A stretch of DNA of 64,000 nucleotides from Pseudomonas graminis (GTDB taxonomy: Bacteria; Pseudomonadota; Gammaproteobacteria; Pseudomonadales; Pseudomonadaceae). The notes under the pieces are model-generated. The model had not been told where the DNA came from. It saw only the letters and a program-made list of their open reading frames with translations, and searched no databases. Both the position numbers and the translations under genes were made by a program. Below, one piece after another: positions 10,094 to 22,936 of this stretch; position 1 is the first letter of the stretch; each line of letters begins with the position of its first letter. The stretch is taken from the NCBI RefSeq assembly GCF_004364335.1, contig NZ_SOCR01000007.1:124001-188000 (forward strand), in the 5' to 3' direction.

Positions 10094-10122
10094 AAAAAAA
10101 AGACCCGGCTATAAGCCGGGTC
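10094..10122 (-). terminator. Intrinsic terminator of prrF
   Basis: A 9-bp stem GACCCGGCT/AGCCGGGTC with a 3-base loop (10102-10122) is followed on the minus strand by eight consecutive T's (10101-10094). The direction of the T-run shows that it serves the minus strand. Confidence 0.9.
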
Positions 10123-10205
10123 AAAAACCGTGATTAGCCTGATGAGGAGATAATCCGGAAGCCGACCTAAGGCTTCTGGGTTACCAACCAGTCTCGCGAC
10201 CGGTT
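10094..10205 (-). ncRNA. prrF: PrrF-family iron-responsive small RNA
   Basis: On the minus strand a roughly 112-nt transcript is predicted. Its middle contains the PrrF core, recognisable as TTATCTCCTCATCAGGCTAA followed by TCACGGTTTTTGACCCGGC, and it ends in a rho-independent hairpin with eight T's. A Fur box and a -35/-10 pair lie directly upstream. PrrF RNAs are Fur-repressed, Hfq-dependent RNAs that, in low iron, repress mRNAs for iron-rich, non-essential proteins. The start near 10205 is inferred from the -10 position. Identity rests on recalled PrrF sequence and the Fur site; no alignment was run. The 451-base gene-free stretch 9866-10316 otherwise holds no convincing ORF. Confidence 0.88.
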
Positions 10206-10208
10206 GCG

Positions 10209-10240
10209 CTCAATAATAATCATTCCCATTTGAGAGTCAA
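10209..10240 (-). promoter_or_regulatory. prrF promoter with overlapping Fur box
   Basis: On the minus strand, TTGACT (-35, 10240-10235) and TATTAT (-10, 10218-10213) are 16 bases apart, and the RNA would start about 7 bases further on. The Fur-box window 10209-10227 matches the GATAATGATAATCATTATC consensus at about 13 of 19 positions, including an unbroken ATAATCATT. It covers the -10 and spacer, so iron-loaded Fur would block transcription. Confidence 0.82.
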
Positions 10241-19686: not shown

Positions 19687-20850
19687 TCAGCGGGTTTCGT
19701 TGAACAGCTCACGCCCGATCAGCATGCGGCGGATCTCGCTGGTGCCGGCGCCGATCTCGTAGAGCTTGGCGTCGCGCAGCAGTCGTCCGGCCGGGAATTC
19801 GTTGATGTAGCCGTTGCCGCCGAGAATCTGAATGGTCTCCAGGGCAAATTGCGTCGCCCGTTCGGCGGCATAGAGGATCACCCCGGCAGCGTCCTTGCGC
19901 GTGGTCTCGCCGCGCTCGCAGGCCTGGGCCACGGCATACAGATAGGCGCGGCTGGCGTTGAGCTGGGTGTACATGTCGGCAACCTTGCCCTGGATCAGCT
20001 GGAACTCGCCGATGCTCTGGCCGAACTGTTTGCGGTCGTGAATGTACGGCAGGACGACGTCCATGCACGCCTGCATGATCCCGACCGGGCCGCCCGAGAG
20101 CACGACGCGCTCGTAATCCAGGCCGCTCATCAACACCTTCACGCCACCGTTGAGCGCACCGAGCAGGTTTTCTTCCGGCACCTCCACGTCATCGAAGAAC
20201 AGCTCGCAGGTGTTGGAGCCACGCATGCCGAGCTTGTCGAACTTGTTGCCCCGCGAGAAACCGCGCCAGTCGCGCTCGACGATGAACGCGCTGATGCCGT
20301 GGGCGCCTTTTTCCAGGTCGGTCTTGGCGTAGATCACGTAGGTATTGGCATCAGGGCCGTTGGTGATCCAGGTCTTGCTGCCGTTGAGCACGAAGCGGTC
20401 GCCGCGTCGGTCGGCGCGCAGCTTCATTGAGACCACGTCGGAACCGGCGTTGGGTTCGCTCATGGCCAGGGCGCCAACGTGCTCCCCGCTGATCAGCCTG
20501 GGCAGGTAGCGGGCTTTCTGTTCGGGCGTGCCGTTGCGGTTGATCTGGTTGACACAGAGATTGGAGTGGGCGCCGTAAGACAATGCCGCGGAGGCCGAAC
20601 CCCGACTGATTTCTTCCATGGCGATGACATGGGCCAGGTAGCCCAGTCCCGCGCCGCCGTACTCTTCATCGACGGTTATGCCCAGCAGACCCATGTCGCC
20701 GAACTTGCGCCACATGTCGGCGGGGAAGAGGTTGTCTTTGTCGATCTGTGCAGCGCGTGGCGCCAGCTCGGCAGCAACGAAGGCGCGCACCTGATCGCGG
20801 AGCATGTCGAGGGTTTCGCCGAGGCCGAAATTGAGCGTGGGGTAATTCAT
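19687..20850 (-). CDS. liuA: Isovaleryl-CoA dehydrogenase (LiuA)
   Basis: This 387-residue acyl-CoA dehydrogenase begins the liu operon. The FAD and substrate segments are typical, such as [15 protein letters not shown] and [14 protein letters not shown]; a C-terminal [30 protein letters not shown] segment is also present. The catalytic glutamate of isovaleryl-type enzymes fits the [11 protein letters not shown] position. It converts isovaleryl-CoA to 3-methylcrotonyl-CoA and passes electrons to ETF. ATG 20850 gives the usual family N-terminus MNYPTLNF; an in-frame ATG at 20859 is an alternative. A LiuR-like palindrome lies about 60-75 bases upstream. Confidence 0.94.
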
Positions 20851-20909
20851 GGACTGCATCCCGAGTTGTTATTGGAGGGCTGTCAGGGAGGAAGGAGAAT
20901 GTGTCACCT

Positions 20910-20923
20910 TTACGTTAACGTAA
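20910..20923. promoter_or_regulatory. LiuR operator upstream of liuA
   Basis: TTACGTTAACGTAA is a perfect 14-bp palindrome about 60 bases upstream of the liuA start. A minus-strand TTGACA lies at 20946-20941, just upstream. Nearly the same palindrome occurs at the MerR-type liuR gene, which supports its role as the shared operator. LiuR boxes of this type are known from the MerR-family regulators of this pathway. Confidence 0.85.
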
Positions 20924-21010
20924 GCCTGCGGTCGTGTTGATGTCAACGGGGATGAATGGCTGCCGCGGGAATAACGGAAGGGGGAGAGGTCTACAAATGC
21001 CAGATAGCAC

Positions 21011-21034
21011 GAAGGGGAGCCTGGGCTCCCCTTC
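21011..21034 (-). terminator. Hairpin ending crcY
   Basis: GAAGGGGAGCC and GGCTCCCCTTC pair perfectly over 11 bp around two bases. The predicted transcript ends here, although no strong T-run follows, so termination may be partial or factor-assisted. Confidence 0.6.
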
Positions 21035-21368
21035 AAGTTCGATTGCATGCTCGTTTTTATTGTTAGGTGGCCTGTTGTTGTTTTTGGCGACCAGCCTTTT
21101 TTTGCTTTTTTGAGCGACCCCCAAACGGGGCCAAGAGCAAACGTATTTTTTTGAGCGCTGATCCGCTTCGATCTTTCGATCCGACTCGTCTGGTAGCTGC
21201 CTGAACGCAGTCTTGTTGTTCTCAGTCCGGTCGTGAGGCCAAGGCCTCAAGTAGCGCAATCCACTCCAAAAAAATCAGTTAGCTGCGTCTCTGTCCGTGT
21301 TGTTCTTGTTATGTCAGAGCCGATACGTCTTGTTTTTATTGGGTTATCGCATTTGTTATTTTTGTTGT
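21011..21368 (-). ncRNA. crcY: CrcY-type Hfq/Crc-titrating small RNA
   Basis: A roughly 358-nt transcript is predicted on the minus strand, starting near 21368, 12 bases past a sigma-54 -12 element, and ending in an 11-bp hairpin. It contains at least six A-rich CA motifs (AAnAAnAA-type), seen on the plus strand as TTGTT/TTTTATTG runs at 21353-21368, 21329-21341, 21297-21312, 21212-21221, 21072-21085 and 21053-21065. CrcZ/CrcY/CrcX RNAs soak up Hfq-Crc to relieve catabolite repression and are transcribed by RpoN with CbrB. The location beside the HMG-CoA lyase gene matches recalled crcY placement in P. putida KT2440 (between PP_3540 and PP_3541). The gene-free stretch 20851-21541 is otherwise non-coding. 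Confidence 0.85.
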
Positions 21369-21379
21369 ACGTAAGAGAT

Positions 21380-21396
21380 AGCAGAAGCCATGCCAA
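21380..21396 (-). promoter_or_regulatory. Sigma-54 (RpoN) promoter of crcY
   Basis: On the minus strand TTGGCATGGCTTCTGCT follows the YTGGCACGrNNNTTGCW layout exactly in spacing, with two substitutions (C to T in the -24 block, T to C before TGC). The conserved GG and GC dinucleotides are intact. Transcription would begin about 12 bases beyond, near 21368. Confidence 0.82.
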
Positions 21397-21477
21397 CTTC
21401 CAGAAGGTCCCGGTTTACGGGGCTTTGCGGGCTACACCGGCCTGGATTCAGTGCTGAATCTGTGGCCAGGTGTTTCC

Positions 21478-21520
21478 GTGTTACCCGTTTCCCTGAACGC
21501 GATGGCGGGCAGGGTAACAC
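21478..21520. promoter_or_regulatory. Inverted repeat, candidate CbrB enhancer site
   Basis: GTGTTACCC (21478-21486) and GGGTAACAC (21512-21520) are perfect 9-bp inverted arms separated by 25 bases. They lie about 85-125 bases upstream of the sigma-54 promoter, a normal position for an activator of RpoN. The TGTTAC/GTAACA arms agree with the half-sites recalled for CbrB, but the spacing here (29 bases between the 6-mers) is longer than the about 14 recalled. Confidence 0.6.
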
Positions 21521-21541
21521 TGTGTGACAACTTGTCGCACA

Positions 21542-22441
21542 TCAGGCCGACAGACGTGCCTTCGCCACCCGCGAGCCGTTTGCCCGACCCAGCGTGTCGC
21601 TGATGCGTTGGCCGGCTGCGATCAGCTTGTCCAGATCGATACCGGTCTCGATGCCGAGGCCGTTCAGCAGGTAAACCACGTCCTCGCTGGCCACGTTGCC
21701 GGTCGCGCCTTTGGCGTAGGGGCAGCCGCCGAGGCCGGCCACGGAACTGTCGAATACCTGAATGCCTTCCAGCAGGCTGGCGTAGATGTTGGCCAGCGCC
21801 TGGCCGTAAGTGTCGTGGAAATGCCCGGCCAGCTTGCCGCGGGGGATCTGCCCGGCCACCACGTCGAACAGCGTGCGGGTAGCGCCCGGCGTGCCGGTGC
21901 CGATGGTGTCGCCCAGAGAAACCTCGTAGCAGCCCATGGCGTACAGCTCGTTGGCGACCGCCGCCACTTGCTTCGGCGCGATCTCACCTTCATAGGGGCA
22001 ACCCAGCACGCAGGACACGTAGCCGCGAACGCTGATGCCGTGCAGGCGCGCGGCCTCCATGATCGGCAGAAACCGGTCCAGGCTTTCGCTGATCGAGCAA
22101 TTGATGTTGCGCTGGGAGAACGACTCCGATGCGGCGGCGAACACGGCGATTTCCTTAACGCCGGCCGCCAGCGCGTCTTCGAACCCCCGCAGGTTGGGCG
22201 CCAGCGCGGCGTAGGTCACGCCGTCCTTGCGCTGGATGCCGGCGAACAGCTCAGCGGAGCCCGCCATCTGCGGCACCCATTTTGGCGAAACGAAACTGCC
22301 CGCCTCGATATAGCTGACGCCCGCGTCGGCGAGGTCATGCACCAGTTGCAGTTTGTCGGCGACACTGACCGGCCGGGATTCGTTCTGCAGGCCGTCCCGG
22401 GGGCCGACTTCGACCAGACGCACACGCTGAGGGAGAGACAT
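21542..22441 (-). CDS. liuE: Hydroxymethylglutaryl-CoA lyase (LiuE)
   Basis: A 299-residue HMG-CoA lyase of standard length. It has the TIM-barrel start VRLVEVGPRDGLQNE, the SVRGYVSCVLGCPYEG metal/substrate region, GHFHDTYG with the metal-binding histidines and GLGGCPYAKGATGN with the catalytic-loop cysteine. It cleaves HMG-CoA to acetyl-CoA and acetoacetate, the last step of the liu pathway. Here it is 55 bases downstream of liuR, not after liuD, and crcY lies between it and liuA. A separate liuR-liuE unit is therefore likely. Confidence 0.95.
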   Translation of the reverse strand: MSLPQRVRLVEVGPRDGLQNESRPVSVADKLQLVHDLADAGVSYIEAGSFVSPKWVPQMAGSAELFAGIQRKDGVTYAALAPNLRGFEDALAAGVKEIAVFAAASESFSQRNINCSISESLDRFLPIMEAARLHGISVRGYVSCVLGCPYEGEIAPKQVAAVANELYAMGCYEVSLGDTIGTGTPGATRTLFDVVAGQIPRGKLAGHFHDTYGQALANIYASLLEGIQVFDSSVAGLGGCPYAKGATGNVASEDVVYLLNGLGIETGIDLDKLIAAGQRISDTLGRANGSRVAKARLSA

Positions 22442-22495: not shown

Positions 22496-22876
22496 TCAGC
22501 GGGTTATTTCAAGCGCGGCCTTGCAGCGTTCCTCCGCCGTGTCGAGTTCCAGTTGCATCTGCTGAATATCCAGAAGCTGCTGATCCAGCTGGGCGCGACG
22601 CTCGGCGATTTTCTCCAGCATAGTGCTCAATTGTTTGTGATTGCCGCCGGCGGGGTCGTACAGACCGATGAGGTCGCGGCACTCGGCGAGCGAGAAGCCG
22701 ATGCGCTTGCCGCGCAGAATCAGCTTGAGGGTGACCTTGTCTCGGGCCGAATAAACACGCTCCTGCCCACGCCGTTCCGGGCTGAGCATGCCTTGTTCTT
22801 CGTAGAAGCGGATGGTGCGGGTGGTGATGTCCAGCTCGCGGGCAAGGTCGGAAATGCTGTAGGTGGTGGCAGTCAT
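22496..22876 (-). CDS. liuR: MerR family regulator of leucine/isovalerate catabolism (LiuR)
   Basis: This 126-residue MerR protein starts with the winged-helix segment SISDLARELDITTRTIRFYEEQGMLSP and continues through a coiled-coil (about residues 75-115) without the C-terminal cysteines of metal sensors. It represses the liu genes in related bacteria. ATG 22876 is preferred because a LiuR palindrome (22921-22936) lies 45 bases upstream, in the promoter; ATG 22900 would add eight non-conserved-looking residues and place the start much closer to the operator. It neighbours liuE in the same direction. Confidence 0.92.
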   Translation of the reverse strand: MTATTYSISDLARELDITTRTIRFYEEQGMLSPERRGQERVYSARDKVTLKLILRGKRIGFSLAECRDLIGLYDPAGGNHKQLSTMLEKIAERRAQLDQQLLDIQQMQLELDTAEERCKAALEITR

Positions 22877-22920
22877 TGCAGTGCTCGATACGGAAGGCAT
22901 GGGCGTAACGTAAGTTGGGC

Positions 22921-22936
22921 TTTACGTTAACGTCAA
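22921..22936. promoter_or_regulatory. LiuR operator upstream of liuR
   Basis: TTTACGTTAACGTCAA has the same ACGTTAACGT core as the liuA operator and is symmetric at 14 of 16 positions. A second, weaker half-site (AACGTAAG) lies at about 22907-22914. The site allows LiuR to control liuR-liuE and implies autoregulation. Confidence 0.82.

Follow-up and report, generated by a model that had tools for sequence, protein, structure and literature searches.

The closest described system is crcY of Pseudomonas putida, whose expression is reported to depend on CbrB and IHF (PMC6296734), and the same source gives IHF as a requirement for CbrB activation of crcZ, crcY and PP2810. In its account of the P. 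putida crcY promoter, F1 is the most important subsite, substitution of R' or R1 is without effect on expression, CbrB binding is not significantly changed by altering R' or R2, and the authors argue that binding takes place on a single DNA face (PMC6296734). The published CbrB consensus, TGTTAC-N12-14-GTAACA-N15-19-GTAACA, pools several targets and organisms, and the orthologous RNAs that have been studied are described as relieving repression by Hfq/Crc (PMC8871633). RpoN dependence is reported in Azotobacter (PMC6292655), and a review, in the portion of its text cited here, gives crcZ and crcX alone as activated by RpoN in P. syringae (PMC8657755).

We analysed a window of 64,000 nucleotides of Pseudomonas graminis (the term denotes this whole stretch of DNA) and consider it highly probable that it contains crcY with a CbrB-driven RpoN promoter, making an RNA that titrates Hfq/Crc. 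The RNA family, promoter anatomy, conservation and synteny of the locus are established here. The locus resembles crcY of P. putida in its RNA family, its RpoN box, the positions of F1, R' and R2, and the N29 gap, and in P. putida strain 31753 (L013) crcY likewise adjoins the gene for HMG-CoA lyase, an arrangement that presumably also holds in P. putida KT2440. The two differ in that strain 31753 has an IHF site at -58 with 0 mismatches, compared to 4 here, and a -24 box TGGCACG instead of TGGCATG; moreover, liuA is adjacent here, whereas it is not found within the approximately 4.8 kb fetched downstream in strain 31753. The gene is an ordinary one: its sRNA family is known, it is well preserved as a member, and its promoter carries a change specific to the lineage. 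The features of the RNA, with the basis of each assignment, are the following:

20979-21368, minus strand: CrcY small RNA, CrcZ family RF01675 (cmscan and fold z-score; ends predicted)
21353-21363, minus strand: A-rich Hfq/Crc-type cluster 1, two overlapping AANAAYAA (motif scan)
21330-21337, minus strand: A-rich motif 2 (motif scan)
21300-21307, minus strand: A-rich motif 3 (motif scan)
21213-21220, minus strand: A-rich motif 4 (motif scan)
21075-21085, minus strand: A-rich cluster 5, two overlapping motifs (motif scan)
21057-21064, minus strand: A-rich motif 6 (motif scan)
21011-21034, minus strand: terminal hairpin with an 11-bp stem and a 2-nt loop (read from the sequence)

An earlier sequence-only reading had proposed a CrcY sRNA locus at this place, and comparison with Rfam agrees: RF01675 matches 20979-21368 on the minus strand with 301.1 bits (gathering cut-off 95 bits; E 2.2e-83) over the full model (1-398), and among the three copies in the genome this one occupies the crcY place. 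The predicted fold has a minimum free energy of -116.6 kcal/mol (z -3.65), and none of 100 shuffles folded as low. Inside the RNA, eight minus-strand matches to AANAAYAA, which we take to be the Hfq/Crc-type A-rich motif, form six non-overlapping clusters, as many as the minimum that had been claimed; over the whole window and both strands the motif occurs 18 times against 3.97 expected. The 5' end likely lies at 21368/21369, 12 nt past the GC of the RpoN box, and the 3' end likely at the 11-bp hairpin, which is present as described and whose counterpart is included in the RF01675 consensus; since the U run is absent downstream of this hairpin, the 3' end is uncertain. Neither a T-tailed terminator on the crcY strand nor a sigma-70-like promoter on either strand was found in 20700-21560. 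A 114-aa open reading frame overlapping CrcY (20915-21259, minus strand) is unsupported as a gene, with no Pfam match at E 0.001.

RF01675 exceeds the cut-off at three places in the genome (6.03 Mb in 27 contigs): crcZ (L001) beside cbrB and pcnB, crcY in the window, and a third copy (L003) next to a gene of glycoside hydrolase family 17. We name this third copy crcX from copy number and synteny, the name coming from no annotation. It also encodes Hfq, RpoN and a CbrB open reading frame with a sigma-54 activator domain. CrcX scores 282.8 bits, below CrcY, and carries five A-rich clusters. Its RNA is 78.6% identical to CrcY, and its promoter shares the F1-N29-R'-R2 site, which is almost equally far from the start; unlike crcY, it keeps the IHF site (1 mismatch versus 4) and the TGGCACG box, and it adjoins the glycoside hydrolase gene. 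CrcZ shares with CrcY the RNA family, six A-rich clusters and a CbrB/RpoN-type promoter, but differs in its F1-N15-R1 arrangement with a further GTAACG downstream, in its place beside cbrB and pcnB, and in an RNA that is 74.6% identical. Across the genus, RF01675 occurs in 149 of 149 genomes, with one match in 19, two in 114, three in 15 and four in one (G082, in which two are fragments below the cut-off), and in 395 of the 398 genomes of a larger run that overlaps the first; the strict filters may lose weak copies, and it is from copy number under these filters that crcX is taken to be absent from two-copy genomes.

The promoter elements, with positions relative to the likely start, are:

21514-21519, minus strand: CbrB subsite F1, TGTTAC, starting at -150 (pattern and crcY survey)
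21479-21484, minus strand: CbrB-type subsite GTAACA, starting at -115, equated with R' by position
21471-21476, minus strand: GAAACA, probable R2 from its spacing, 2 bp downstream of R'
21415-21427, minus strand: place of the IHF site of other crcY promoters, -58 to -46 (4 mismatches to WATCAANNNNTTR, chance level)
21410-21423, minus strand: GC-rich dyad GCC-N-CG-N5-CGG, covering the former position of the IHF core (11 of 11 aligned subclade members)
21380-21396, minus strand: sigma-54 (RpoN) -24/-12 element, with TGGCATGGCTTCTGCT at 21380-21395 (GG-N10-GC intact; conservation)

An RpoN pattern with one mismatch is expected 2.13 times per window, so that the bare pattern is not significant, and the weight of the box comes from its position and its conservation in relatives: 17 of its 17 positions are unchanged between the window and the five relatives closest to it on the tree. 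The near-consensus RpoN promoter that had been predicted at 21380-21396 is present as a sequence element, with GG-N10-GC intact. Its -24 box, TGGCATG, departs from the TGGCACG of 104 of the 117 crcY promoters surveyed, a variant common to 10 of the 11 members of the subclade to which the window belongs. This box is one of the points against the crcY reading, together with the absence of an IHF site at a gene whose P. putida counterpart depends on IHF, the listing of crcZ and crcX alone in the P. syringae review (PMC8657755) and the missing U run of the hairpin.

Upstream of the promoter, the perfect 9-bp inverted repeat that had been claimed is found as GTGTTACCC (21478-21486) and GGGTAACAC (21512-21520), with N25 between the 9-mers and N29 between the TGTTAC and GTAACA cores; it is the only match in the window, and 100 shuffles gave none. 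Genome-wide, TGTTAC-N12..30-GTAACA occurs at three places, with gaps of N15, N29 and N29, which by their coordinates lie upstream of crcZ, crcY and crcX, respectively. The reversed control pattern has 4 genome matches, so the number of palindromes alone is not above chance, and the evidence lies in their positions. R1 (GTAACA at N12-14 after F1), which the consensus would place there, is absent at this crcY. By position, we equate the GTAACA near -114 with R', whose published centre is -112, and the GAAACA that follows it with R2, and TGTTAC-N29-GTAACA-N2-GAAACA fits the CbrB-type site predicted upstream of the RpoN promoter of crcY.

To compare arm spacings we used the fetched loci with duplicates removed (117 crcY, 34 crcX and 65 crcZ promoters), classed by neighbour: mvaB upstream for crcY, cbrB upstream for crcZ, and the crcX neighbours for crcX. 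The counts exclude 18 duplicates among the crcY promoters, 9 copies left unclassed, 3 that were doubtful, and a single match each of crcY, crcX and crcZ in which no RpoN box was recognisable. The crcY sample, which combines high-scoring matches with 80 loci kept by the mvaB search and is non-random, has F1-to-R gaps of N29 in 67 promoters, N28 in 19, N30 in 11, N27 in one, N18/19 in 8 and N40 in one, and 10 promoters have no perfect F1-R pair. In crcX the gap is N29 in 28, N28 and N30 in one each, and N19 in two; one promoter has both N19 and N29, and one has no perfect pair. In crcZ it is N14 in 49, N15 in 12, N13 in two and N16 in one (N13-16 in 64 of 65), with no pair in the remaining one. 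A gap of N27-30 is therefore found in 98 of 117 crcY and 31 of 34 crcX promoters. The long arm spacing noticed in the sequence-only reading is real (N29), but as a peculiarity of this locus it is rejected, being the rule in crcY and crcX; the short spacing belongs to crcZ. The gap class has changed at least five times on the mvaB tree.

The half-sites move in steps. Within the stretches counted (F from -170 to -130, R from -131 to -100), F1 of crcY starts only at -147 to -152, -137 to -139 and -160/-161, and R only at -113 to -116 and -125/-126; crcX has additional R starts at -104 and -123/-124, and in the crcZ of some genomes F and R are shifted jointly to about -161 and -140. In classed promoters the larger departures of F1 and R are all of about one helical turn, and the predicted 10-12-bp steps were borne out in the held-out set by those crcY and crcX copies that were classed and showed larger shifts, namely G176, G256 and G391 as well as the tandem copies in G308 and G408. 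Two unclassed copies outside the counts go against this rule: in L264 F lies at -210 and R at -175, and L258 has R at -147 and -114 and lacks F. Steps of a helical turn fit CbrB binding on one DNA face, as the P. putida authors argue (PMC6296734).

R' is present near -114 in 112 of 117 crcY and 33 of 34 crcX promoters, and GAAACA or GGAACA comes next in 112 of 112 and 31 of 33 of these, respectively. This conservation argues for a function missed by single substitutions; our guess is that R' is redundant with the adjacent R2.

The loss of the IHF site at crcY is less usual than the arm spacing and represents the lineage-specific change. Over -105 to -26, WATCAANNNNTTR, which we take to be the IHF consensus and used for scoring, is matched with zero mismatches in 64 of 91 crcY promoters and with at most one in 77, usually at -58 to -46. 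The crcY of the window, with 4 mismatches, is the worst of the 91, a score that 75% of random 28-mers of its spacer composition reach or exceed, and the A+T content of its -66 to -29 region (39%; mean 73%) is the lowest, shared with L116. An IHF site between enhancer and promoter, as in P. putida crcY, is thus not found here, from which we infer that activation is weaker or IHF-independent.

On an mvaB tree of 115 rows, with IHF counts read from the drawn tree and one copy per locus, the 32 rows from genomes with a recognised crcX form one set of 34 (SH-aLRT 99) together with P. asturiensis (L005) and P. alliivorans (L010); two genomes with a crcX-like copy and none recognised beside mvaB (G170 and G202) were left off. 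The window lies inside this set and so probably belongs to the P. syringae group. Three or more IHF mismatches at -66 to -38 are found in 27 of the 34 crcY rows of this P. syringae-like clade and in one of the 81 outside it (L253, a tandem copy), 79 of which have at most one. The minimum number of changes on the tree is at least one for crcX and at least four for IHF loss, and since crcX arose once, the tie between them is an association only.

The crcX copies of the clade keep the IHF site. Among the 12 genomes with crcX that were compared first, the IHF match was worse at crcY than at crcX in 10, equal in two (G026 and G115) and better in none. The prediction was set beforehand for 28 further multi-copy genomes, 20 of which had both crcY and crcX recognised; there the crcY match was worse in 16, equal in two (G176 and G271) and better in two (G126 and G320), and the A+T content of the spacer was lower at crcY in all 20, as in all 12 of the first set, the paired genomes being related and the counts not independent. 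The other 8 of the 28 were unpaired: G308 and G408 have tandem crcY; the unclassed copies of G170 and G202 have 2 and 3 mismatches; in G172 crcX was not recognised, crcY has 0 mismatches and one extra copy lacks a recognisable RpoN box; G225 has 0 at crcY and at an extra copy; G273 has 0 at crcY and 3 at an extra copy; and the two unclassed copies of G402 both have 0. In the 27 paired genomes with crcZ scored, crcZ has at least 2 mismatches in all 27 and at least 3 in 25.

By analogy with the studied orthologues, we would expect the following of CbrB binding, the start site and titration at this crcY. When the preferred carbon is exhausted, the response regulator CbrB would bind the split site TGTTAC-N29-GTAACA-cg-GAAACA and drive RpoN polymerase at 21380-21396, producing an RNA of about 358 nt whose six A-rich stretches would bind Hfq/Crc and pull the complex off repressed catabolic mRNAs. 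This crcY would share the work with crcZ and crcX, and the site for IHF-assisted looping, retained at crcX, has gone from its promoter.

Another reading is that crcY here is a decaying duplicate, its RNA intact and its promoter barely used, with crcX and crcZ doing the work. An IHF site at chance level and the variant -24 box in 10 of 11 subclade members speak for it, as does the naming of only crcZ and crcX in the cited part of the P. syringae review, which would fit a weaker crcY in that species (PMC8657755). We nevertheless regard decay as unlikely, because a comparison of six close relatives suggests constraint on the enhancer and promoter boxes, and the crcY RNA scores higher than that of crcX. 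Between the window and the five relatives nearest to it, R' and R2 are invariant at 17 of 17 positions and the F1 arm at 8 of 9, compared to 49 of 74 positions in the spacer, and in the 11 aligned subclade members the enhancer and promoter boxes are kept while the spacer, apart from the dyad at 21410-21423, is mostly variable. Invariant boxes beside a variable spacer speak against simple decay.

A division of inputs between the copies seems to us possible, and we put it forward tentatively: a single copying event in the ancestor of the P. syringae-like clade would have given rise to crcX from crcY, after which crcX kept IHF-assisted CbrB activation and crcY lost its IHF site, and the dyad of the subclade of the window may be a site for some other protein, architectural or regulatory, with crcY answering another signal. 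The dyad could also be a weak hairpin of the mvaB transcript. A similar split is seen in four other genomes with crcY in tandem (G051, G086, G308 and G408), where one copy of the pair has 0 IHF mismatches and the other 3 or 4. These pairs follow mvaB (L162, L152, L253 and L281, respectively); the copy with the intact IHF site has R' replaced by GTATCA or GTATCG, and the other keeps R', has TGTCAC as F1 and shows 3-4 mismatches at the IHF place. A further 7-bp inverted repeat in the spacer of the window, GATTCAGCACTGAATC (21445-21460, minus strand), is only partly kept in near relatives.

The surroundings of crcY comprise:

21542-22441, minus strand: mvaB/liuE, hydroxymethylglutaryl-CoA lyase, the next gene upstream (NF004283, 484.7 bits, cut-off 246)
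22496-22900, minus strand: MerR-family regulator, probable LiuR (PF13411; LiuR by position and the palindrome at 22921-22933)
20908-20925, no strand assigned: LiuR-type operator CTTTACGTTAACGTAAGC between crcY and liuA (ACGT pair)
19687-20859, minus strand: acyl-CoA dehydrogenase, probable isovaleryl-CoA dehydrogenase LiuA (Pfam domains; LiuA by position)

The NF004283 match directly upstream confirms the expected synteny with HMG-CoA lyase. The downstream neighbours, named from their position and similarity, resemble liuA, liuB, liuC and liuD, which puts crcY within the leucine (liu) cluster. The palindrome before the MerR gene, TTTACGTTAACGT (22921-22933), is of the LiuR type, a motif that we take to be the LiuR operator, and ACGT-N2..4-ACGT is present in the crcY-liuA gap of 35 of the 35 loci examined. 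The IHF-site loss, the position in the liu cluster and the two paralogues are absent from the sequence-only reading. Among the literature titles searched, none was found on IHF-site loss at crcY, the spacing rule or the liu position, and we do not claim that these are unpublished.

This position suggests that polymerase from the crcY promoter might read through the U-less hairpin into liuABCD and make liu expression CbrB-dependent: crcY is codirectional with liuA, the hairpin lies about 150 bp before it, and 20700-21560 contains no T-run terminator on the crcY strand. LiuD of P. aeruginosa needs CbrB by a route that the source, in its part cited here, gives as still to be established (PMC8871633). 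Read-through is nonetheless improbable in our judgment, as the LiuR-type operator before liuA in all 35 loci points to a promoter of its own, and P. putida strain 31753 is without liuA in the downstream DNA fetched. P. aeruginosa, moreover, has no crcY to our knowledge. The nearness of liuA is also unsupported as a cause of IHF loss; two genomes with only two copies (L139 and L210) have liuA at less than 600 nt and an intact site.

That the upstream palindrome serves another enhancer-binding protein, such as NtrC, is very improbable: the subsites bound by CbrB are described as non-palindromic (PMC6296734) and its assignment to this DNA is a prediction, but the half-sites are the published CbrB hexamers TGTTAC and GTAACA, and all three genome places of the pair precede the three Crc RNAs.

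For the CbrB-driven crcY that we favour, the survey provides testable handles on which does what among two or three near-identical sponge RNAs: a conserved R' that was called dispensable in P. putida, half-sites that move by about whole helical turns, and a clade whose crcY has mostly lost the IHF site kept by crcX. If the loss of IHF matters, crcY and crcX should respond differently despite the same CbrB site.

In the crcZ promoters of L087 and L089 a GC-rich inverted repeat with T7 after it holds the downstream GTAACG subsite in its loop. This repeat resembles the cbrB terminator, in which case enhancer and terminator would overlap. Two copies in G405 look interrupted: crcZ (C1:5720446-5722033) is split in two, with about 1.2 kb between the pieces, and crcX (C1:3095683-3096307) spans 625 nt, compared to about 400. 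The crcY of G031 (L144) matches the window copy in two adjoining pieces with about 95 query bases skipped, which looks like an internal deletion. Elsewhere in the window, a PrrF-family sRNA, a family of the iron response, is found at 10094-10240 on the minus strand as the sole RF00444 match (155.8 bits, cut-off 90).
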